A model generated the notes under the pieces. That model saw only the letters and a list, made by a program, of their open reading frames with translations. It was not told the origin of the DNA and did no database searches. Both the position numbers and the translations under genes were made by a program. From positions 3,658,001-3,722,000 of the forward strand of contig NZ_CP035704.1 in the NCBI RefSeq assembly GCF_004168365.1: DNA of 64,000 nt, in the 5' to 3' direction. Each line of letters starts with the position of its first letter. Positions within the stretch are counted from its first letter, which is position 1. Shown here in pieces: positions 20,049-33,722 of this stretch. This DNA is from Pseudolysobacter antarcticus. GTDB taxonomy: Bacteria > Pseudomonadota > Gammaproteobacteria > Xanthomonadales > Rhodanobacteraceae.

Positions 20049-20124
20049 GGCCAAGTAGCTCAGTTGGTAGAGCAGGGGATTGAAAATCCCCGTGTCGGCG
20101 GTTCGATTCCGTCCTTGGCCACCA
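20049..20124 (+). tRNA. tRNA-Phe (GAA)
   Basis: A 76-nt cloverleaf. The acceptor stem GGCCAAG pairs with CTTGGCC, followed by an encoded ACCA; D-arm, anticodon stem GGGGA/TCCCC with loop TTGAAAA (anticodon GAA) and T-arm GGCGG/CCGTC with TTCGATT are all regular. An intrinsic terminator begins 8 bp downstream. The 3' side is followed by a broken histidine-kinase gene, consistent with past integration or deletion at this tRNA. Confidence 0.97.
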
Positions 20125-20168: not shown

Positions 20169-20769
20169 GCGCTGGTGCGCCTCGCAGCGGTCGAACGCGA
20201 GCGCGGATTTGCACGCGCGGTGGCGCATGAATTGCGCACGCCGCTGGCGGTAATGCGTACCGTCACCGAACACAGCCTGAGCCATAGCGAATCCGACTCC
20301 GCACGCAAAAGCCTGACCGCTCTGCTGACCACCGTCGAAGGCATGACGCGCTCGGTGGACGGCTTGTTGTCACTCGTGCGCTACGAAGCCGGGCTGGGCC
20401 AGATCGAGGAAGAACCGGTCGAACTCGGCGGCCTGATCACGATTCAATTCGGCCTGCTGCAACAGCGATTTATTCATCAGCATCGACAACACCGAAACTG
20501 CCGACAGCAATGTCGCCAGCCTGGAATTCCGCAACGCCGCGCCCAATCTGACCGAACAGGATCTGCAACATTTCGGCGAACGCTACTGGCGCAAGAACGA
20601 CGAAAACGAAACAATCCCGCACGGCGGCTTGGGCCTCGCACTAACCCGCGCACTCGCCGCCGCCCTCGGCGTGGAGCTTGAGTTCGCGCTGCACGGCGGT
20701 TACCTGTGCGCGCGTATCACGCAGCTAAAAGCGATTGCGTTTATTCATGCCGATAGCGCGATTAGCTGA
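20169..20769 (+). pseudogene. Sensor histidine kinase remnant (QseC/OmpR-partner type)
   Basis: Two frames together encode parts of a histidine kinase. The first (to about 20475) has the phospho-acceptor H-box 'AVAHELRTPLAVMRT' and the rest of the dimerisation helices. The second (from about 20470, stop TGA 20767) encodes 'LEFRNAAPNLTEQDLQHFGERYWRK' and 'GGLGLALTRALAAALG', the end of the ATPase domain. The sensor region, the N-box of the ATPase domain and any start codon are missing, and the frame changes at the junction, so an internal deletion occurred. It cannot make a working kinase. No partner response regulator is adjacent. Confidence 0.8.
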
Positions 20770-20979
20770 CCTCGCAATTTGCTGATTTTGTGCTGCGGAT
20801 ATTTGCCATGTAGGGCGCATATCTTGCGCTCACTACCTCGCCCATCATGAAAATCTGCAGCACGGCGCAAGGCTGCCTCAGAACGCAGCCACCATGCTCA
20901 CGATCCCGCACCGGCGCGTGAATATCGATAAAGATGGTTTTGCCGCAGGCAGAGGAACAATTAACCTATTTGCCAAAAA

Positions 20980-20997
20980 TTAACCAACTACGTTATT
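20980..20997 (+). promoter_or_regulatory. Candidate MqsA operator
   Basis: The interrupted palindrome TTAAC-CAACTAC-GTTA lies 8 bp upstream of the mqsR start and resembles the AACCT-AGGTT type palindromes bound by E. coli MqsA; a TTAACCTATT element stands 19 bp further up. Only the outer TAAC/GTTA bases are symmetric, so this is tentative. Confidence 0.35.
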
Positions 20998-21004
20998 ATT
21001 TCCC

Positions 21005-21308
21005 ATGGAAAAAGGCAGGCCTCATTGCAAGCTGGCTCTCGTCAAAGCCTTCGTCGCTGCGGGAAAGGTGCGCTCGACCTTCTCGGCGCTCGCTGGCGGT
21101 GCTGCCTTGGGATTCGACTTCAATGGAATGCTAGCCGTCGTCATGGCGCTAACGCCCACTGACTTCCACAAAAGCATGACGACGCACGCTGACCATCGAA
21201 TTTCGCAGGGACGTATACCGACCCAAGATACCGACAGGCGAGGTTTACCTGAAACTCACGGTCATGGACGACGTACTTATTGTGTCCTTCAAGGAGTTAT
21301 GGCTATGA
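21005..21308 (+). pseudogene. mqsR: mqsR toxin gene, frameshifted
   Basis: The first frame gives an MqsR N-terminus ('LVKAFVAAGKVRSTFSAL', 'ALGFDFNGMLAVVMALTPTDFHKSMTTHADH'). After His60 or so one extra base (the C near 21199) shifts the frame. The remainder, 'DVYRPKIPTGEVYLKLTVMDDVLIVSFKE', is intact in the next frame and stops at TGA 21306-21308, overlapping the mqsA start in an ATGA. Compared with E. coli MqsR (98 aa, GCU-specific RNase) the combined length is right. As it stands only a truncated, altered product is made, so the RNase should be inactive. Confidence 0.85.
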
Positions 21309-21706
21309 AATGTCCGAATTGCGGCGCGGCTGAACTGGTACACGACACCCGCGACATGCCATACACCTACAAAGGCGAATCGACCAGCCTTGAGGCCATT
21401 ACTGGCGATTTTTGCCCAGTCTGTAACGAAGCGGTTATTGCGATGGATGAATCGGTGCGCACTAATACATTGATGCTCGCGTTCAACAAGCAGGTGAATG
21501 CAGCCATCGTCGATCCCAATTTCATAATCAGCGTTCGCAAGAAGCTCCATTTGGATCAGCGGGAGGCGGCGGAAATTTTCGGCGGAGGAGTGAATGCCTT
21601 TTCTCGCTACGAGAACGGCAAAACCAAACCTCCATTGGCCTTGGTAAAACTGCTCCAGGTGCTTGATCGTCATCCTGACTTGTTGGCTGAGATCAAGACG
21701 GCGTAA
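21305..21706 (+). CDS. mqsA: MqsA-type antitoxin / HTH repressor
   Basis: A 133-aa type II antitoxin. The N-terminal zinc domain has CxxC pairs 'CPNC' (3-6) and 'CPVC' (37-40), as in E. coli MqsA (Cys3, 6, 37, 40). The C-terminal XRE-type HTH contains 'QREAAEIFGGGVNAFSRYENGK', nearly identical to the E. coli DNA-binding helix. It binds MqsR through the zinc domain and represses its own operon. ATG 21305 is supported by the ATGA overlap with mqsR, AGGAG 8 bp upstream and homology. Its partner toxin is frameshifted, so MqsA is now an unpaired antitoxin. Confidence 0.93.
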   Translation: MKCPNCGAAELVHDTRDMPYTYKGESTSLEAITGDFCPVCNEAVIAMDESVRTNTLMLAFNKQVNAAIVDPNFIISVRKKLHLDQREAAEIFGGGVNAFSRYENGKTKPPLALVKLLQVLDRHPDLLAEIKTA

Positions 21707-23562: not shown

Positions 23563-23880
23563 ATGAAATCAGAGCCGCTCAACATAATATGAGTAGACGC
23601 CTCCAGCCGATCAGATGGTTCTTACTCGCGGCGCATTGGCGACGCGATTGAACGTGCTCTCGTCGACAACTCGCCAGGCGCGATAGTTGTTCGTCGCGAC
23701 CTCGGTCGCGCGCCGATTGAACATATCCGTGACCAAACGATCACTGGCTACTACACACCGGACGGTGGCATGACCGATGCCCTCCGGGACGCGACCAAGC
23801 TCTCCAACGCGATCATCGACGAAGTACGCGTTGAGGACGTCTTGCTGATCACGACACCTATGTCAATACTGTTAGCTTAA
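23563..23880 (+). pseudogene. AzoR-type NADH:quinone reductase, truncated and interrupted
   Basis: A good Shine-Dalgarno (AAGGAGA) and ATG 23563 open a frame that hits TGA after nine codons. The same frame then continues as the N-terminal half of an FMN-dependent azoreductase: 'DGSYSRRIGDAIERAL', 'AIVVRRDLG', 'ALRDATKLSNAIIDEV', 'DVLLITTPM'. Similarity ends at about 23862, where the flavin-binding 'PMYNF' would follow, and unrelated sequence stops the frame at 23880. Both a nonsense codon and loss of the C-terminal half make it non-functional. It was presumably the last gene of the LysR-controlled operon. Confidence 0.8.
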
Positions 23881-24010
23881 CCACTTATTGATCGCCTTTT
23901 GCGCCACCATCGGGATAGCGGCAGTGGCGGCAACATCCTCGGCGTGCGTATCTGCGTCTGATTCAGCGGCAAGGTTCGGTCGTGACTCGGAAACGGCGAA
24001 TGAGAGCTAG

Positions 24011-24114: not shown

Positions 24115-25347
24115 CTATCTGTCGCGCAATACGACCGCAGGATTCAGCCGCGAGGCCTTGTTGGCCGGTAGCAGGCCGCACAATGCGCCGATCGCGCAGG
24201 CGAGGATGACCGTGGTCAGCATCGTGACGGCACTCAAATGCAGACGGTGATCGGTGGTTTGTTCCAACCAGAATGCCGACACCGCCGCGAGCAGCATACC
24301 GAAGATTCCGGCGGCGACTGCGATCATCACCGACTCGGCGAGAAAGCGCGATTGAATCGCCCGCGGATCGGCGCCAGTGGCGATACGCAAACCGATTTCC
24401 CGCGCGCGATCGTCCACGGACAGCAGCATGATTCGTGACAGCGCGGCGGCGCCGAGCAACAACGCGATCATCGCGATATCGACCAGCATGCGTGGCGACC
24501 AGACTGCCGAATGTTGGTTGGTGCCGTCCAACGCCGAAAAATCACGCAGTTGAAAATCATCCTGCTGATTGCTCGCAAGCCCGTGCTGGCGGCGCAACAG
24601 GCTGCGGATTTGTTGCTGTAGCGAAGCCACGTCCGCGCCGGGGACAATGCGCACGGAAATTTGTCCGATCGCATCACCGCTCAACTCATTGCTGCCGGCA
24701 AATAAACCCTGTGCGGTCGGCAACGGCATAAATACCGCCGTCGCATAATCGCCAAAAAATGTACTCGCATCCTTGGCAGAAACTACACCGCTGATATGGA
24801 AATTCGAACCGCCGAGCTGGATGATCTTGCCCGTTGGATCAGCCTCGGCGAAAATTTCGGCGCTTAAGCTGGAGCCGAGTATTACAGCGCTATTTGCATC
24901 TGCGTTATTTGCGTCGCTGAAATCCTGTGCACTGAAAGCGCCCGTGAGCGCCCAACCGTGGGCCGCAAAATAATCCGCGTCGACCGCATAAACACTGATC
25001 GGCAACGACGAGTCTGCGTAGTTCACCCTGCTGAACCGCAACAGACTCGCCGCAGCGGAACTTACGCCGTCTAGTCGGCGGATCGCCGCAACATCGGCAG
25101 TAGTCAACGCCACGGTTTGTCTGCCATCGGAAATCGCGGCCGGCGCGTAGCTATTCTCGGAGAAAATTTCCAGGCGACTCGGTACCGCAGAATGCGCGTC
25201 GTTGCCGGCAATACCGACCTGCCCGAGTGCGAGCGCTCCCAGCAGCGCGGCTGTGCCGATCGCCAATCCGAAAAAAGCCTGAGCGCCGATGTACGGCTGC
25301 CGGCAAATCGCCTGCCACGCGGTAGCGAGTGTGTCGCGCAAACTCAT
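24115..25347 (-). CDS. MacB/FtsX-type ABC transporter permease
   Basis: A 410-aa permease. The N-terminal helix (about 22-45, 'AQAFFGLAIGTAALLGALALGQ') is followed by a periplasmic MacB-PCD-like domain (50-275) and three C-terminal helices of the FtsX domain. 'RAREIGLRIATGADPRAIQSRFLAESVMIA' between helices is diagnostic of the mechanotransmission-type MacB family. The start overlaps the stop of its ATPase gene by 4 bp, so they form one unit. No membrane-fusion protein or TolC is adjacent. The FtsX-domain loops look normal although the partner ATPase is unusual. Confidence 0.9.
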   Translation of the reverse strand: MSLRDTLATAWQAICRQPYIGAQAFFGLAIGTAALLGALALGQVGIAGNDAHSAVPSRLEIFSENSYAPAAISDGRQTVALTTADVAAIRRLDGVSSAAASLLRFSRVNYADSSLPISVYAVDADYFAAHGWALTGAFSAQDFSDANNADANSAVILGSSLSAEIFAEADPTGKIIQLGGSNFHISGVVSAKDASTFFGDYATAVFMPLPTAQGLFAGSNELSGDAIGQISVRIVPGADVASLQQQIRSLLRRQHGLASNQQDDFQLRDFSALDGTNQHSAVWSPRMLVDIAMIALLLGAAALSRIMLLSVDDRAREIGLRIATGADPRAIQSRFLAESVMIAVAAGIFGMLLAAVSAFWLEQTTDHRLHLSAVTMLTTVILACAIGALCGLLPANKASRLNPAVVLRDR

Positions 25348-26078
25348 GCCAGCGCCTGCAATGTATGCGCTGCATGTGGCGCATACAGACGTCCATCGCG
25401 CATGAAAAAATGACGATCGGCATGCGCCGCGACATCGGCGTTCTCGGTCATGAGCACCAAGGTGTGACCCTCCTCGCGCAGGCGTTGCAGCAAGCTCAGA
25501 ATTTCACTGGTGGCCGTGGCATCGAGCGCGCCGGTGGGCTCGTCGGCGAGGAGGATCGGCGCGTCGTTGATCAACGCGCGCGCAATCGCAATACGTTGTT
25601 GCAAACCGTTGCACAGGTCCATCGGCTTGTGCAACGCGCAATCCGCGATGCCGATTTGGCGCAGCACCGTATGCGCCATTTCGCGCTGCCGCGCGCGCGA
25701 CAACGTGCTGTAGGCAAGCGGCAGCATGACGTTTTCGAGCGCATTCAAACGCGGCAACAAATGAAACGAGCGGAAGATGAACCCGAATTTTTGCTGACGC
25801 AGCCGCGCTCGCCCTACCGCATCCAGACTCGCGACATTCTGGCCGTCGCAAAAATAACGGCCCGAACTCGCCGACTCGAGGCAGCCAAGCAAATTCAGCA
25901 AGGTCGATTTACCACAACCGGCAGGCCCGAGGATGGACACAAATTCGCCGCGCCGAACGGTCAAGGTCACGCCGCGCAAAACCGGCACCGCCGCGGCGGC
26001 ATGCGACGGATATGCCTTGCTCAACGCATGCAGTTCGAGCTGCGGCGCGTGGGTGTAGGCAATGCTCGCGGCATGCAT
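25344..26078 (-). CDS. LolD/MacB-type ABC ATPase with altered Q-loop, signature and H-loop
   Basis: A 244-aa nucleotide-binding subunit. Walker A ('GPAGCGKST'), Walker B ('ILLADEP') and the D-loop ('GALD') are intact. Three other motifs deviate: the Q-loop reads 'FIFRSFHLL' (Gln to Arg), the signature is 'LCNGLQQR' in place of LSGGQQQR, and the H-loop is 'MTENAD' in place of VTHD. ATP binding is likely but hydrolysis should be weak. The start ATG 26078 ('MHAASIAYT') fits family length; the frame is open 110 codons further without homology. It is coupled to the permease by an ATGA-type overlap. Confidence 0.85.
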   Translation of the reverse strand: MHAASIAYTHAPQLELHALSKAYPSHAAAAVPVLRGVTLTVRRGEFVSILGPAGCGKSTLLNLLGCLESASSGRYFCDGQNVASLDAVGRARLRQQKFGFIFRSFHLLPRLNALENVMLPLAYSTLSRARQREMAHTVLRQIGIADCALHKPMDLCNGLQQRIAIARALINDAPILLADEPTGALDATATSEILSLLQRLREEGHTLVLMTENADVAAHADRHFFMRDGRLYAPHAAHTLQALA

Positions 26079-26269
26079 GTGGGGTTCCGTCTTTTGCTTG
26101 GTGCGATGAAAAAAAGAGGATGCGAAAAAGGCAGCTAAGGCTTGGGCCAGCTGAGTAATTGCGACGTACAAACGCCGCTTGGCATTACCTATGGCACGGT
26201 ATGTCACACGAGTCTCCTTTGCAGTAGCCGACGCGTAAATCTGCTGCAAAGACTTGTAAAGGCAGCGGT

Positions 26270-27601
26270 ATGATGAACGCACCCATTCGCCGTGCGTTGA
26301 CCATGCCCCTGTCGAAACATTTTCCCGCGTCGTATCTGCACCTCGGGCCGAGCGAATTGCTGGCCAGCCTGGCATGGCTGCGCCTGTGCGCGATTGTCGG
26401 TCAGGCATTAACCGTCGCCTTCGTTGCGCACTGGCTGGTATTGCCGATCCCGGAAAATGCGTTGTGGCGTGGTATCGCCGTGCTGCTGCTGTTCGAGGTA
26501 TTGGTGCTGTGGCGCATGCGTCGAACCTGGCCGGTCAACGAGCTCGAAGTGTTCGGCCATTTTGTCGTCGACATGGGCGTGCTGGCGTATCTGCTGTATC
26601 TCACCGGCGGCTCGACCAATCCGTTCATCTCGTTGCTGGTGGTGCCGATCGCACTTGCCGCGACCACGCTAGCGGCGCGTTATCTGATTGCGATCGCGCT
26701 ATTCGCCGGCATCATCTATGCGACGCTGATGTTGTATCACCTCAGTTTGCCGAGCATGTACGAACACGATATGCACGCCGATTTCGGTCTGCACGTGCTT
26801 GGCATGGCGGCCAATTTTGCGATCACCGGATTTCTGCTCGGGCTATTCATCTGGCGCCTCGCGCGCGCCTTGCGCCAACAGCAAACCCAGATGCAGCGCG
26901 AACGCGAACGCGCGCTGCGCGACGAAGGCATTCTGGCGATTGCGACCCAGGCCGCCGGTGCCGCGCACGAACTCAACACACCGCTATCGACGATCCGCAC
27001 GCTGCTTGGCGAGCTGCGCCGTGCGCCGGTCGATGCGGCCACGCTTAGCGAGGATCTCGATGTATTGCAGAGCCAGGCCGATCGCTGCCGCGACATTCTG
27101 CGCGAGCTGGTCGCGGTCGGCAGCGCACAACTTGCCGATACACCGGAAACACTTGATCTCGAAGAATTCATCGCTGGCTGCGCGGAACGATTCCGCTTGC
27201 TGCGGCCCGAGATTGAACTGCAGATCGATATCGCCGCAGAGATCGCAACTATCCGCCTGAGTGTTTTGCCGGGTTTGCGGCACGCACTGATCAATCTGCT
27301 CAACAACGCCGCCGACGCTTCGCAGCAACAATCGAGTGCGCGTGTGGACCTCGTGGTTCGTGGCCAAGCGAGTATTCTCGAATTGCGCGTCCGCGATTAC
27401 GGCATCGGCTTGTCGGCCGACATCCTTGCCGCCGCCGGCCACGACTTTTACAGCAGCAAACGCAACGGCCTCGGTTTGGGATTGGCCTTGACCCATGCCA
27501 CCGCCGAGCGCTTGAACGGCGAACTCAGCGTGCACGCCGCCGCGGGCGGCGGTAGCGAAACCTGCTTGCGCCTGCCATTGCGCTTGGCCGAAAATCGCTG
27601 A
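26270..27601 (+). CDS. regB: RegB/PrrB-type redox sensor histidine kinase
   Basis: A 443-aa membrane kinase. Six hydrophobic helices span about residues 30-205, with the quinone-sensing signature 'GGSTNPF' (RegB GGxxNPF heptapeptide) in the middle. A coiled segment rich in Arg/Glu/Gln then leads to the H-box 'AAGAAHELNTPLST' and a complete HATPase domain ('NLLNNAADAS', 'GIGL', 'GLGLGLALTHA'). RegB/RegA systems respond to the quinone pool and control respiration, nitrogen and carbon functions. The stop overlaps the start of the response regulator (TGATG). I see no RegB-type redox Cys in the linker. Confidence 0.88.
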   Translation: MMNAPIRRALTMPLSKHFPASYLHLGPSELLASLAWLRLCAIVGQALTVAFVAHWLVLPIPENALWRGIAVLLLFEVLVLWRMRRTWPVNELEVFGHFVVDMGVLAYLLYLTGGSTNPFISLLVVPIALAATTLAARYLIAIALFAGIIYATLMLYHLSLPSMYEHDMHADFGLHVLGMAANFAITGFLLGLFIWRLARALRQQQTQMQRERERALRDEGILAIATQAAGAAHELNTPLSTIRTLLGELRRAPVDAATLSEDLDVLQSQADRCRDILRELVAVGSAQLADTPETLDLEEFIAGCAERFRLLRPEIELQIDIAAEIATIRLSVLPGLRHALINLLNNAADASQQQSSARVDLVVRGQASILELRVRDYGIGLSADILAAAGHDFYSSKRNGLGLGLALTHATAERLNGELSVHAAAGGGSETCLRLPLRLAENR

Positions 27602-28203
27602 TGAACTTGCCAACTCACAACCCCGCGACAACGGCAGATTCGGTTTTGCTGATCGACGACGATGCAGTTTTTCTGCGTGTCATGGCGCGCGCTTTGGGTC
27701 AGCGCGGATTCACCGTACGCACGGCGCAGAACAGCGAAACCGCACTCGCGTTATGCCGCAGCGAAGCACCAATGCACGCCGTGCTCGATCTCAAACTCGG
27801 CGAGGAAAACGGACTGACATTGATCCCGCAATTGCTCAGCGTTGCGCCTGATCTGCGCATCCTGTTGCTGACCGGCTACGCCAGCATTGCCACGGCGGTC
27901 GAGGCGATCAAGCGTGGCGCACACGACTACCTCGCCAAACCCGTGGACGCCGATGCGGTGACACTTGCGTTGCGCGGCAAAAATGAATCATCACTCGCCA
28001 CTGCGACCACCCGCGTGCCGGACGGTGCACAACCGCTGCGACGACTGGAATGGGAACACATCCAGCGCGTGCTCAGCGAATGCGACGGCAATATCTCGGC
28101 AGCCGCGCGACGACTTGGTCTGCATCGCCGCACCTTGCAGCGCAAGCTCGGCAAACGCCCGGTGCGCGAGATCGATGAAGATGCGGAGAGCGACGTCTTT
28201 TGA
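27601..28203 (+). CDS. regA: RegA/PrrA/ActR-type response regulator
   Basis: A 200-aa response regulator. The receiver has acidic pair 'IDDD', phosphorylatable Asp in 'AVLDLKLGEENGL' and Lys in 'LAKPVD'. The C-terminal Fis-like HTH is 'EWEHIQRVLSECDGNISAAARRLGLHRRTLQRKLGKRP', which is the nearly invariant RegA DNA-binding helix pair. A short linker of about 25 residues separates them. It is co-translated with the kinase. It ends 30 bp before the convergent cyanophycin cluster, so it is not part of that operon, although RegA-type control of storage metabolism would be reasonable. Confidence 0.9.
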   Translation: MNLPTHNPATTADSVLLIDDDAVFLRVMARALGQRGFTVRTAQNSETALALCRSEAPMHAVLDLKLGEENGLTLIPQLLSVAPDLRILLLTGYASIATAVEAIKRGAHDYLAKPVDADAVTLALRGKNESSLATATTRVPDGAQPLRRLEWEHIQRVLSECDGNISAAARRLGLHRRTLQRKLGKRPVREIDEDAESDVF

Positions 28204-28234: not shown

Positions 28235-30004
28235 TTACGCCGCCGGCAGATCTGTTCCGGGTTGCCAACCGGAAGCGAGCAATTGATCCAGCAAAACGAC
28301 CGTATTGTTGCGCGCATTGCCGCCGTGAATCGGCAATACCAACACCTCATGGGCGCGTGCTGCTGCGAGTGCGCTGCGCGCCGCGGTGAACTCGTCCAGG
28401 CATTCGACGATGGCATCACTCGATAGACCAGCGCGCACAAGCTCATCGCGCAGGATCGTGGCGACTTCGCCCGCGGCGCGACCACGCAACATGCCATCGA
28501 TATCCTTGAGCACGATATGGTCGGGATGAAAGCTCGCCGCGACTTGCGCGAGTTCGCGAATCTCCTTGTCCTCGCGATTGCCGGCCTGCCCGAGCACCAA
28601 CAATAATCGCGAACTGCCACGCTGTCGGGTCGCCACGTCGAGCAATCCGCGCAGGCCTTCGGCATTGTGCGCGTAGTCGAGAAAAACCTGCAGACTGCCG
28701 AGCTGCCAATGTTGCAGGCGGCCCGGATTGTCGCTGTGCGCGGCGCCAAAATTTGCCAGCACTTCGATGATCGTGGCGACAGAAGCTCCCAGTGCCGAGG
28801 CACTCAAAACCGCGGCGCTGATGTTCGCGATGTTGTAGGTCGCGCTGCCGGAAAATGTCAGCGGCATGTCCGCGACCTTGCCGAGATCGTGAGCCGCGCC
28901 ATGGTTCGATAAAAACAGATTCCCATCGCGCATGCCGCACGTGACACCGCCGCGTTCGCGATGCCCGAGCAAAATCGGGTGGTTATCGTCCAGTGCGAAC
29001 CAGGCAATCGCGCAGTGTAATTTTTCCGCACGCCGCACCAGCAATTCATCGTCCGCATTCAGCACCAGCAAGCCGCTCGAACCGAGCGTATGTGCGACGA
29101 CCAGCTTGACCTCGGCGAGTGCGTCAAGATCGTGGATGCCGTATTCGCCGAAATGATCGACGCTGATATTCGTCACCACTGCTACCTGCGCGCGTGAAAC
29201 GCCCAGACCACGCCGCAGGATTCCGCCGCGTGCGGTTTCGAGAATCGCGAGTTCAACATCACGATGCCGCAGCACCGCGCGCGCACCGGCTGGGCCGGAA
29301 TAATCGCCGGCTTCGATATTTTCGGTACCGATCACCAGACCATCGGTCGAGCTATACCCGACCTTCCGGCCATGCGCACGCGCCATCGCCGCGAGCAAGC
29401 GCACCGTCGTGGTTTTGCCGTTCGAGCCGGTGATCAGCGCGAGTGGAATATCGCGCAGGCCACTCCAGTCGATGGACTCGACCGCAGGCAAATCGGACAA
29501 CAGCCAGCGCATCGATCCCGTGCCCAAACCAATCGATAACTCGTCTTCATCGAGTAACGCGGTGAGTTGCCGCGCTGTAGCGGTCTGCAACAACACCTCG
29601 AGTTTCGGATTGTGTTCGGCGGCGGAAAACGCGCGCAGCGTGTGCAGCGCGGAATCGTCATCCCACGCCGCCGCATGACCCGGCGCATGGAACGTTTCGC
29701 GGCGCGCTGCGGCGATGCTTGCAAGCCACGCCCATTCGTTGACTTCGGTTGCCGTGAACAATTGATCGACCGGTGCGCTCAACGCCAGCGATGCACCACT
29801 GGCATGCTCACGCCAGAGCACGTGGCCGGTCGGCCAACCGAGTTGTATGCGCACTCGTTCGATACGCGTTTTCCACGCGAGCAATAAAGTTGCGTCGGGA
29901 ATCTCGCCAACGCTTTCGAGCACCGCGCCGACAGCGTCGAAGTAGAGGTTGAATCCCGTGAGGCGTCGTGAATCCTCGAACGTGACGACGGGCTGGATGT
30001 TCAG
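28235..30004 (-). CDS. Mur-ligase-family paralogue of cyanophycin synthetase
   Basis: About 589 aa. An N-terminal region of about 190 residues without known fold is followed by a Mur-ligase module: P-loop 'ITGSNGKTTTVRLLAAM', 'LAILETARGGILRRGLGV', 'VTNISVDHFGEYGI' and C-terminal 'VFLDYAHNAEGL'. These resemble the C-terminal half of CphA, but there is no ATP-grasp domain. I see no ATG, GTG or TTG near the expected start; CTG 30004 overlaps the cphA stop (CTGA) behind a GGGAGAG and is the best candidate. It probably ligates an amino acid onto a peptide or primer, possibly within cyanophycin synthesis. The longer frame (to 30184) lies inside cphA. Confidence 0.78.
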   Translation of the reverse strand: MNIQPVVTFEDSRRLTGFNLYFDAVGAVLESVGEIPDATLLLAWKTRIERVRIQLGWPTGHVLWREHASGASLALSAPVDQLFTATEVNEWAWLASIAAARRETFHAPGHAAAWDDDSALHTLRAFSAAEHNPKLEVLLQTATARQLTALLDEDELSIGLGTGSMRWLLSDLPAVESIDWSGLRDIPLALITGSNGKTTTVRLLAAMARAHGRKVGYSSTDGLVIGTENIEAGDYSGPAGARAVLRHRDVELAILETARGGILRRGLGVSRAQVAVVTNISVDHFGEYGIHDLDALAEVKLVVAHTLGSSGLLVLNADDELLVRRAEKLHCAIAWFALDDNHPILLGHRERGGVTCGMRDGNLFLSNHGAAHDLGKVADMPLTFSGSATYNIANISAAVLSASALGASVATIIEVLANFGAAHSDNPGRLQHWQLGSLQVFLDYAHNAEGLRGLLDVATRQRGSSRLLLVLGQAGNREDKEIRELAQVAASFHPDHIVLKDIDGMLRGRAAGEVATILRDELVRAGLSSDAIVECLDEFTAARSALAAARAHEVLVLPIHGGNARNNTVVLLDQLLASGWQPGTDLPAA

Positions 30005-32799
30005 TCGTCGCTCTCCCGCGACAGATGGATGCCGCGTTCGTCGCGCACCACGCCACCCATCGCTGCGAAGCTGGATTCGTCGAACGCGGGCTCGCTCACG
30101 GGCATCGGTGCTGCGGCCGGCATGACTGCGGCAGCGCGCGTTTCCGGTGCACCGGCGGCACGGAACTTGATGATCTGTTTCCACGAGCGCACGAGCGCAT
30201 CGGCAAAAACCAGCAGCAGATCGCCGGGCTGGCCCATGTGCAACGCGGCATCGATCGCTTCCTGTTCGTCGGGAATGATCGAGATCGCATCCTGCGGCAC
30301 GCCCGCGGCGAGCAATGCGCGCGACTGGATGCGCGGCACTTCGTCACCATCGCGACCACGCCGCGAATCGTCGCGACGGCAGATGTAGTGATCGAATCGG
30401 CCGGCGACGGCATCGGCGATCGCGACCAGATCTTCATCGCGCCGATCGCCCGGCCCGGCCAGTACCACGATGCGCCGCCCGGTGACATCGAGACGCTGCG
30501 CAAGATCGGTCATCGCCGCGACCGCATGCGCGTTGTGGCCGTAGTCGAATAGCACCTTGAACGGATGTTCGTTGAACACGTTCATGCGACCCGGCGCCTG
30601 GAAGAACGTGGTATCGAACGTGCGCAAACCCTGGCGGATCGCATCGAGCTTGATGCCGAGCGAAAATGCCATCGCCGCGGCGACCATCGCGTTCTGCACA
30701 TTGTGCAGCGCGCGACCTTCGAGCGTGGCCGGAATCAGATGCGTCCACAGCAGCGGAATATGGCTGCCCTTGTCGTACAGCGTAATCATCTGGCCGTTGA
30801 CGCCGGCTTCGAGCGCACACGCGCGACCGCCTGCTCGGATGTGTTCGCGCACGAGTCCGTGCTGCGGATTCATCGTCACGTAACACAGGATTTTTGCGTC
30901 GGTATAGCCCGACATTTTCAGCACGAGCGGATCATCCGCATTCAGCACGGCGCAATCCTGCGCGACCTCGACGACGATGCGCTTCACCTCGGCGAGTTGC
31001 TCCAGCGTATCGATGCCTTTCAGGCCGAGATGATCGGACTGCACGTTCAGCACCGCGCCAACATTCACCTTCGGCACGCCCATGCCGGCGCGCAGCAAAC
31101 CGCCGCGCGCGGTTTCGAGCACGGCGATATCGATCTGCGGATCCGACAGCACCATGCGCGCCGATACCGGCCCGGTCATGTCGCCCTCGACCGTACGCTG
31201 GCCGTCGATATAAACGCCGTCGGTCGTGGTCAATCCGGGCGTATAGCCGCCCATCTTGGTGATGTGTGCGAGCATGCGCGCGGTGGTGGTTTTGCCGTTG
31301 GTGCCGGTGATCGCGGCGATCGGCACATGCGATGGCGCACCCGGCGGAAACAGCATTTCGATGACCGGGCCGGCGGCATCGCGCGGCGTGCCTTCGCTCG
31401 GACTCACGTGCATGCGAAAACCAGGCGCCGCATTCACTTCGCAGATGCCGCCGCCGATGATGCGATAACTTTCGGCGATGTTCGACGACAGAAAATCGAC
31501 GCCGCCGACATCGAGCCCGATCGCACGAATCGCGCGCACCGCCATGTCGCGATTGTCCGGGTGGATGATGTCGGTGACATCGGTCGCGGTGCCGCCCGTG
31601 GAAAGATTCGCGGTCGAGCGCAGATAGACGATTTCGTCTGGCGGTGGCACCGATTCGGCGGTGTAGTTCAAACGATCCATCATCATCTGTGCCTGCGCAT
31701 CAAGCTCGATGCGCGTCAGCACTTTTTCATGGCCGATGCCACGGCGCGGATCCTGATTCACCGCGTCGACCAGTTGCGTGATCGTCTGCTTGCCGTCACC
31801 TACAACATGGCCCGGCGTGCGTCGCGTCGCAGCGATCAGCTCGCCATTGACCACGAGCAAACGGTGATCGTCGCCGGTGATGAAATTTTCCACGATCACC
31901 GAGCGCGAATGCTCACGCGCCGCTGCGAATCCCGCGCTGATTTCCTCGTCGGTAGTGAGGTGAATCGAGATACCGCGGCCGTGATTGCCGTTGTACGGTT
32001 TGGTCACCACCGGCAAGCCGAGGCGATGCGCGGCGCGCAACGCGGCCTCCTCGGTCTGCACGAGTTCCTGCTTCGGCACGGGCAGGCCGAGCGAGGCGAG
32101 AATCTTGTTGGTTTCTTCCTTGTCGCTGGCGAGTTCAACCGCGATATGCGGCGTGCGTCCGGTGATCGTGGCCTGGATGCGCTGCTGATATTTGCCATGA
32201 CCGAGCTGGATCAGTGATTGATCGTTCAGGCGCAGCCACGGGATGTTGCGTTCTTCGGCAGCGCGCACCAGCGACGCGGTCGACGGGCCAAGCGCACGAC
32301 GTTGCGCGTAACGGATGAATTCATCGCGCGCGGTCGGCCATTCCCAGCCTTCGGGCACACTGGATCGCGGCTGCAATTCGGTCGGCAACAGCGATGACAA
32401 AAGTCGCAACGCGAGTTCGCCCGCAGCAATGCCTTCCTCTTTTTGCGCGTATTCGTAGACGACCGAATACACGCCGGGTTTGTCGGTGCTGCGCGTCTTG
32501 CCGAAGGTAACTTCCTCGCCCGCGACGTTCTGCAATTCGATCGCGACATGTTCGAGCACATGACCAAGCCAGGTGCCGTCGCCTTCGCGCATGCGGCGGA
32601 TGAAGCCGCCCGGTTCGCGATACGAACAGCCGTGTTCGGCGAGGCCGGGCAATGCCGCGACCAGGCCATCGACGAAGGCCGCACCGAGTCGCCCGGTCGG
32701 CCACGCTTCGAGCTCGGCGAGATCCAGTTCAAGCCGTATGACTGGAAAATGCGCGTGTACCGAAGGGCCGACGAACACGGAACGATCGAGTATGCGCAT
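30001..32799 (-). CDS. cphA: Cyanophycin synthetase
   Basis: A 932-aa enzyme that polymerises aspartate and arginine into multi-L-arginyl-poly-L-aspartate. Its N-terminal domain holds 'GTWLGHVLEHVAIELQ'. The ATP-grasp domain (about 220-470) has 'KPYNGNHGRGISIHL' and 'ICEVNAAPGFRMH', and adds Asp to the backbone. The Mur-ligase domain, P-loop 'ITGTNGKTTTARMLAHI' with 'ETARGGLLRAGMGV' and 'DYGHNAHAV', adds Arg to the side chain. A tail of about 60 residues beyond the usual end is rich in Ala/Pro. ATG 32799 ('MRILDRSVFVGPS') is the family start. cphB lies 75 bp upstream and the Mur-ligase paralogue directly downstream. Confidence 0.95.
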   Translation of the reverse strand: MRILDRSVFVGPSVHAHFPVIRLELDLAELEAWPTGRLGAAFVDGLVAALPGLAEHGCSYREPGGFIRRMREGDGTWLGHVLEHVAIELQNVAGEEVTFGKTRSTDKPGVYSVVYEYAQKEEGIAAGELALRLLSSLLPTELQPRSSVPEGWEWPTARDEFIRYAQRRALGPSTASLVRAAEERNIPWLRLNDQSLIQLGHGKYQQRIQATITGRTPHIAVELASDKEETNKILASLGLPVPKQELVQTEEAALRAAHRLGLPVVTKPYNGNHGRGISIHLTTDEEISAGFAAAREHSRSVIVENFITGDDHRLLVVNGELIAATRRTPGHVVGDGKQTITQLVDAVNQDPRRGIGHEKVLTRIELDAQAQMMMDRLNYTAESVPPPDEIVYLRSTANLSTGGTATDVTDIIHPDNRDMAVRAIRAIGLDVGGVDFLSSNIAESYRIIGGGICEVNAAPGFRMHVSPSEGTPRDAAGPVIEMLFPPGAPSHVPIAAITGTNGKTTTARMLAHITKMGGYTPGLTTTDGVYIDGQRTVEGDMTGPVSARMVLSDPQIDIAVLETARGGLLRAGMGVPKVNVGAVLNVQSDHLGLKGIDTLEQLAEVKRIVVEVAQDCAVLNADDPLVLKMSGYTDAKILCYVTMNPQHGLVREHIRAGGRACALEAGVNGQMITLYDKGSHIPLLWTHLIPATLEGRALHNVQNAMVAAAMAFSLGIKLDAIRQGLRTFDTTFFQAPGRMNVFNEHPFKVLFDYGHNAHAVAAMTDLAQRLDVTGRRIVVLAGPGDRRDEDLVAIADAVAGRFDHYICRRDDSRRGRDGDEVPRIQSRALLAAGVPQDAISIIPDEQEAIDAALHMGQPGDLLLVFADALVRSWKQIIKFRAAGAPETRAAAVMPAAAPMPVSEPAFDESSFAAMGGVVRDERGIHLSRESDD

Positions 32800-32873
32800 G
32801 GATTTTTTCCCTGATGATTCTTCGATTTTAGCGAATGGCGTATGGATGGCTAAACGGACTTCTACCGTCCGTG

Positions 32874-33722
32874 CTAATGCGTTTGCTTCGGCGTGATAAG
32901 CGTGCCGGCAGAAGCAGTGCGTGTTTGCAGATTGAAGGTCGCGCCGGCAATCAGAATATGGATCGTCAAGCCGAGCAGGCAAACCGGATCATCCTCGTCG
33001 GCTTGCGCCATCGACGAAAACTGCAGGTTGCCGGCGTCGACCACGGTCACCGATCCGCTGCCTTCGACTTCGAGCGTGTTGTCGGGGCGGATAAACGCCG
33101 CGGTATCTTCATCCAGACCAATGCCGACCGCATACGGATTGTAAGCGAGCGCGGCAAGCAGCCGACCGAGCCGATCGCGCTGGCGAAAATGCTGGTCAAT
33201 TACAAACCGATTGGTCAGTCCGAGACCCGGCGCGAGACGCACGCTGCCAGCGGTCGGTGATGAGCCTTCCTTGCCGAACGCGATCATGTGCTCGCTCAGA
33301 ATACTCGCGCCCGCGCTGGTGCCACCGACATGCACGCCGCTGGCGTTGCGCGCGCGGATCAGTTGCGCGATCGGCGTGCCGCCAAGCATCGTCGAAAGAC
33401 GCAGCTGGTTGCCGCCTGTGAAAAAAATTCCGCTGGCCTCACCGATACGTTTCAGACGATTGCGTTCTTCGGCGTCGCGACGTGTATCGAAATCCAGCGC
33501 GGTGACGCGGCCGACACCAAGCTCAGTGAATATGCTTTCGTAGCGCGAACCGGTATCGCTGAGCTGGCTCGCGGTCGGGATCACGACGATATCGGCATCC
33601 GCGCCGCCACACAGCGCGACAAAACGTTCAAGGATACGCGGATCGTTTTCTTTCTCCTCGGCGCCGCCGATGGGAACGATCCATCCCCGTTGTTCGCCGT
33701 CGGGGATTCTGCTGGGACTCAT
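32874..33722 (-). CDS. cphB: Cyanophycinase
   Basis: A 282-aa serine-type exopeptidase (S51 family) that releases beta-Asp-Arg dipeptides from cyanophycin. The nucleophile elbow is 'VGGTSAGASILS', with 'FFTGGNQLRLSTML' upstream and 'IDQHFRQRDRLGRL' supplying further active-site residues. No signal peptide is present, so it is intracellular, matching an intracellular granule substrate. It lies just upstream of cphA in the same direction. Confidence 0.94.
   Translation of the reverse strand: MSPSRIPDGEQRGWIVPIGGAEEKENDPRILERFVALCGGADADIVVIPTASQLSDTGSRYESIFTELGVGRVTALDFDTRRDAEERNRLKRIGEASGIFFTGGNQLRLSTMLGGTPIAQLIRARNASGVHVGGTSAGASILSEHMIAFGKEGSSPTAGSVRLAPGLGLTNRFVIDQHFRQRDRLGRLLAALAYNPYAVGIGLDEDTAAFIRPDNTLEVEGSGSVTVVDAGNLQFSSMAQADEDDPVCLLGLTIHILIAGATFNLQTRTASAGTLITPKQTH

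Follow-up and report, generated by a model that had tools for sequence, protein, structure and literature searches.

An ABC ATPase and MacB-type permease pair of Pseudolysobacter antarcticus with an altered ATP site, putatively derived from an adaptor-containing efflux operon

What could a two-gene MacB-type ABC system do for its cell if the ATPase has exchanged the Q-loop, signature and H-loop residues of a canonical ATP site and both reading frames are nevertheless open? This question is raised by a locus of Pseudolysobacter antarcticus within a stretch of 64,000 nucleotides of contig NZ_CP035704.1, the whole of which we call the window. The initial annotation regarded the ATPase as an ATP-binding but weakly hydrolysing unit coupled to a well-preserved permease, and suggested that the two might form a sensor complex signalling through the adjacent, divergent RegB/RegA pair. 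The features concerned are:

24115-25347, minus strand: MacB-type permease of 410 amino acids, strongly diverged (Pfam, alignment, AlphaFold2)
25344-26078, minus strand: ABC ATPase of 244 amino acids, MacB/LolD type, with a non-canonical ATP site (translation, Pfam, homologue alignment, AlphaFold2)
26079-26269, no strand: intergenic region between the divergent ATPase and regB genes; the adaptor gene, found upstream of the ATPase gene in the sister loci, is absent
26270-27601, plus strand: RegB/ActS/PrrB-like histidine kinase, as context (Pfam, NCBIfam)
27601-28203, plus strand: RegA/ActR/PrrA-like response regulator, as context (Pfam, NCBIfam)

The domain content of the pair is that of a MacB-type (type VII) ABC transporter, with MacB_PCD (1.9e-26) and FtsX (3.3e-14) being found in the permease and ABC_tran (E 1e-27) in the ATPase, all above the Pfam gathering scores. 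The two genes overlap by four bases (ATGA) with both frames open, and their codon-position GC resembles that of the neighbouring genes. Codon usage of the permease is on the low side against a reference including ORF 57-1256, which to judge by its GC pattern may be read in the wrong frame. The amino-acid composition of the permease is unusual within the permease tree set (27 rows). AlphaFold2 models built from alignments of homologues predict the MacB fold for both subunits: the ATPase model (mean pLDDT 93) has the ABC domain of E. coli MacB as its top PDB match (5lj9, rmsd 1.1), and the permease model (mean pLDDT 85) matches A. baumannii MacB best, over its whole length (5gko, TM 0.79). The NCBIfam MacB equivalog gave 224.6 and 130.2 bits for its two halves, compared to a cut-off of 966 that separate genes cannot be expected to reach.

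The ATP site of the ATPase is composed of the following elements, given in the order of the protein:

25902-25928, minus strand: Walker A GPAGCGKST; Lys57 and Thr59 kept, Ser53 replaced by Ala and Ser55 by Cys
25770-25772, minus strand: Q-loop residue 103, Gln replaced by Arg (codon CGC, at least two base changes), local sequence FIFR
25593-25616, minus strand: signature LCNGLQQR compared to LSGGQQQR; Ser156 replaced by Cys, Gly157 by Asn and Gln159 by Leu
25536-25556, minus strand: Walker B ILLADEP, intact, catalytic Glu180 kept
25521-25532, minus strand: D-loop GALD, intact
25443-25445, minus strand: H-loop residue 212, His replaced by Glu (codon GAG, at least two base changes), local sequence LMTEN

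The translation bears out the initial annotation for the Arg in the Q-loop, LCNGL in place of LSGGQ and TEN in the H-loop; the ATPase thus lacks the Q-loop Gln, LSGGQ and H-loop His of a canonical MacB-type ATP site. The Walker motifs and the D-loop had also been described as intact, which is correct for Walker B, the D-loop and Lys57/Thr59 of Walker A but not for Ser53, which is conserved in about 100% of the homologues and is Ala here. Retained are Lys57, Thr59, Asp179, Glu180 and Asp186 as well as Tyr23 of the A-loop. Across 133 distinct homologues, Gln at position 103, Ser at 156, Gly at 157 and His at 212 are conserved to about 99-100% and Gln159 to 91%. The Q-loop Gln is present in all 130 homologous rows compared (the two rows of the query itself being excluded), and the signature and H-loop columns deviate in a single one of these rows, a second, weak match of 34% identity in locus L099. 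Four of the five altered key codons require at least two base changes. Near-invariance in the homologues together with these multi-base codon changes argues against chance or a read error; sequencing error as the cause was considered and is unlikely, the changes being in-frame and mostly of two bases each. None of nine positions binding the nucleotide in cis is altered, compared to five of six γ-phosphate-sensing or signature positions (Fisher 0.002, for a partition defined after looking at the data). It is a fair inference from this split that the ATPase would bind ATP but hydrolyse it weakly.

The permease, described earlier as well preserved, turned out to be the opposite. Of 66 positions conserved to at least 80%, 25 are changed, exceeding every one of 83 homologues (median 3, maximum 23), and 76 of 138 columns invariant in the sister clade are changed, one of the 76 being a gap. 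Among the residues no longer present are those at the beginning of TM1 and, in the second helix, the GG/G..MN stretch; the REIG coupling segment is retained. Permease identity is about 29%, compared to a mean of 36% for pairs with similarly related ATPases, 461 of 1837 such pairs being at or below 32%; the permease/ATPase rate ratio is thus a weak sign of faster change in the permease.

Where does the pair come from? A tree of 60 ATPases places the window ATPase with ten sequences, mostly from Lysobacterales, in an 11-row set with an SH-aLRT of 99, from which it departs by an end branch of 1.52 compared to 0-0.41 for its sisters. The end branch of the permease (9.25, compared to a median of 0.26 in the 27-row tree) is saturated. 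The 29 nearest ATPases in a draw of 240 genomes of the order all have canonical ATP sites, so the motif changes are lineage-specific. The sister operons, e.g. that of Xanthomonas massiliensis, share with the window the ATPase clade, the order of ATPase and permease genes and the length class of the permease, with identities of 50-56% for the ATPase and 27-33% for the permease. Their operon order is adaptor-ATPase-permease, and an HlyD/MacA-like adaptor gene lies beside the ATPase gene in 16 of 17 sister loci, the exception starting at a contig end. These 17 are 15 regions from the best permease matches plus L060 (X. massiliensis) and L061; ten are in the ATPase tree and the other seven were admitted by identity to L061. 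The adaptor likewise occurs in an eighteenth locus, L198, which lies outside the clade and was left out of the counts of sister-invariant columns. The window pair has neither a canonical ATP site nor the adaptor: no HlyD/MacA-like adaptor gene was matched within the window, and the best adaptor match in the same genome has an identity of 30% and adjoins another ABC system. With the adaptor present in the sisters and absent here, the pair is most readily understood as a type VII ABC derivative specific to this lineage that would have lost its adaptor gene.

The initial annotation proposed aligning orthologues to see whether the changes are fixed. No permease orthologue was found in 61 relatives, two genomes of the genus and 233 of the family, nor in 398 genomes of the order, 369 of the class and 398 of the phylum (partial samples; the genome sets overlap), nor in plasmids, and no relative was found in viral contigs. 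The ATPase likewise has no orthologue in 230 genomes of the family and 240 of the order, nor among the matches listed for named genomes. The best non-self matches are 34% identical for the permease over most of its length, with short C-terminal pieces reaching 40%, and 56% for the ATPase. A literature search at the level of titles and abstracts brought up no MacB-type pair with these changes. The case therefore comes from one genome.

Comparison with known systems narrows down which functions may be considered. MacB of E. coli, A. baumannii and A. actinomycetemcomitans shares the ABC-domain and permease folds with the window pair, whereas the window ATPase and permease are encoded by separate genes, the ATP site is altered and the MacA/HlyD adaptor co-encoded in MacAB-TolC systems is missing. 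BceAB-BceRS and FtsEX are type VII systems used for signalling and not for pumping, and as they belong to the same fold family a non-pumping role of the window pair would be possible. BceB has ten transmembrane helices, is paired with a kinase that co-evolved with it and depends on an active BceA (PMC5985334); the window permease, with 410 amino acids, is MacB-sized and does not have the ten helices, and in none of 20 regB neighbourhoods does the kinase gene adjoin such a permease. In Pdr5, TM287/288 and CFTR, the signature, the H-loop and other motifs are lost in one site, as described in PMC7756269, and one canonical site is kept per heterodimer. According to the same source, one nucleotide site is built from Walker A/B, Q-loop and H-loop of one subunit and the signature of the other. 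Since both halves are changed in the window ATPase, neither a homodimer nor a heterodimer containing it should have a canonical site: the homodimer would have two altered sites, and a heterodimer with a canonical partner would have one site lacking Gln and His and one lacking LSGGQ.

These data suggest a model according to which a Lysobacterales efflux operon encoding a MacA-like adaptor, an ATPase and a permease was the ancestor, the adaptor gene was lost in the window lineage and the remaining genes then evolved very fast under altered yet continuing constraint. They would encode a type VII ABC complex of the MacB fold that binds ATP or ADP via both Walker motifs and the Tyr of the A-loop and, devoid of the γ-phosphate sensors (Q-loop Gln, signature Ser, H-loop His), hydrolyses poorly or not at all. 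As no canonical site is expected, the complex should not act as an efflux pump, and as there is no MacA the usual tripartite pump cannot form; nucleotide binding would do no more than determine which state the permease and its periplasmic domain adopt. We hold this reading, a repurposed, adaptor-less two-gene type VII pair that binds nucleotide, hydrolyses it poorly and may retain a non-pumping role, with roughly even confidence. More tentatively, the ATPase might be a true pseudo-ATPase, which kept nucleotide binding after loss of the adaptor and lost γ-phosphate sensing in every dimer while the permease was rebuilt in step, so that occupancy alone, without a power stroke, would set the state of the periplasmic domain.

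The main rival is that the pair is a relic on its way to becoming a pseudogene, i.e. a diverged transporter that recently lost its function and whose frames are still unbroken. Catalytic positions and signature positions of the permease were lost together, the adaptor gene is gone, no orthologue was found in the genomes searched, and genes at 20.2-23.9 kb, between a tRNA-Phe gene and the pair, are broken, which indicates that the area tolerates decay. The tRNA-Phe gene (20049-20124) directly precedes a split histidine kinase (20169-20989, plus strand) with HisKA in one frame and a weak, partial HATPase_c in another. It is followed by MqsR/MqsA toxin-antitoxin genes that read as a single open frame (21005-21706, plus strand), in which MqsR appears cut short, the match covering positions 1-63 of the 95 of the profile before a full-length MqsA. 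An azoreductase-like remnant (23590-23910, plus strand; Flavodoxin_2, E 9.2e-08, N-terminal part only) lies downstream of a carboxymuconolactone-decarboxylase-family gene and adjoins the end of the permease gene. Against the relic speaks a simulation of neutral substitution, run from each present gene until the observed number of sister-invariant columns was changed (27 of 99 for the ATPase); starting from the present gene, it ignores indels and includes no late loss of constraint. For the ATPase, 10% of the runs stayed free of stops, for the permease none of 2000, and the observed changes score above neutral ones on BLOSUM62 (P 0.0065 for the ATPase, 0.003 for the permease), so purely neutral divergence of the pair is unlikely. 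If late decay has to explain the deeply conserved changes only (5 of 33 in the ATPase, 7 of 27 in the permease), the two frames would escape a stop with probabilities of 0.30 and 0.036, respectively, indels not being counted, and the multi-base changes in four of the five key codons also argue against recent decay. The change in the ATPase extends well beyond the ATP site, a spread equally compatible with general relaxation and with targeted change. Taken together, we regard a relic as unlikely, although there may have been a short final decay.

Would the altered residues allow ATP hydrolysis by another route? The pair would then still be an exporter, with an unusual ATP chemistry in which Arg103 and Glu212 take over from the lost Gln and His. 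Walker B has kept Glu180, none of the nine cis binding residues is altered, and the opposite charges of the two new residues could pair. Such an exporter is improbable in view of the additional loss of the signature Ser and Gly, the absence of the adaptor for reaching the outer membrane and an arrangement that is used in none of the 130 homologous rows. Hardly credible is a regulatory or structural subunit that would enter a different MacB-like complex of the cell. Partners could come from the 42 additional ABC matches to the ATPase and the other MacB-like permeases that the genome encodes, but no second subunit adjoins the pair, the closest ATPases of the genome are only 40-44% identical, and from the composition of the site given in PMC7756269 no heterodimer should have a canonical site.

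The neighbourhood brings up the remaining alternative, an ABC sensor module signalling via RegB/RegA. The genes are divergent with a gap of 191 bases, through which shared regulation is possible; a promoter and terminator scan gave counts no different from shuffles, and an RNA family search found only a tRNA. The neighbours score best against the NCBIfam families ActS/PrrB/RegB (207.2 of 350 bits) and ActR/PrrA/RegA (182.6 of 250 bits), in both cases below the cut-off. The kinase carries GGSTNPF at residue 113 and RCRDIL at residue 272, the quinone-associated GGxxNPF motif and the redox Cys of RCRDIL being hallmarks of self-contained redox sensing in RegB, which speaks against the sensor module. 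RegB is present in 35 of 36 other genomes of the family (36 of 37 including the own genome), the one miss being an 85%-complete genome, and a relative of the permease occurs in none of 20 regB neighbourhoods. Some ABC ATPase match (33-46% identity) was found in five of the 20, none with the permease, and the ABC pair is absent upstream of regB in all 13 neighbourhoods with upstream open frames listed. The kinase and regulator are a widespread gene pair of the family beside which the ABC pair is a singleton, and neither the proposed signalling partnership nor a conserved linkage to regB-like kinases could be upheld. ABC/two-component modules are known on this fold, as with BceABS, in which, however, BceS requires active BceA (PMC5985334). 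We therefore consider the sensor module highly improbable. In another genus of the family (L153), an efflux adaptor, HlyD-like by eye, is divergent from regB and lies about 430-1920 bases upstream, and in L155 an RND-like pump lies upstream of regB; regB hence adjoins different transporters in different genomes. On the far side of RegA, two overlapping cyanophycin-synthetase-like genes (28235-32982, minus strand) with Mur ligase domains and a Cyanophycin_syn N-terminal domain are followed further along by genes of the peptidase S51 and asparaginase-2 families, likely forming a cluster for cyanophycin metabolism.

ABC exporters with degenerate sites normally retain one working site. If the repurposed pair is the correct reading, a MacB-fold pair without any canonical dimer, with open frames and predicted to fold, would offer a test of mechanotransmission by nucleotide binding only, and it would illustrate that an efflux operon can lose its adaptor and perhaps acquire another role.
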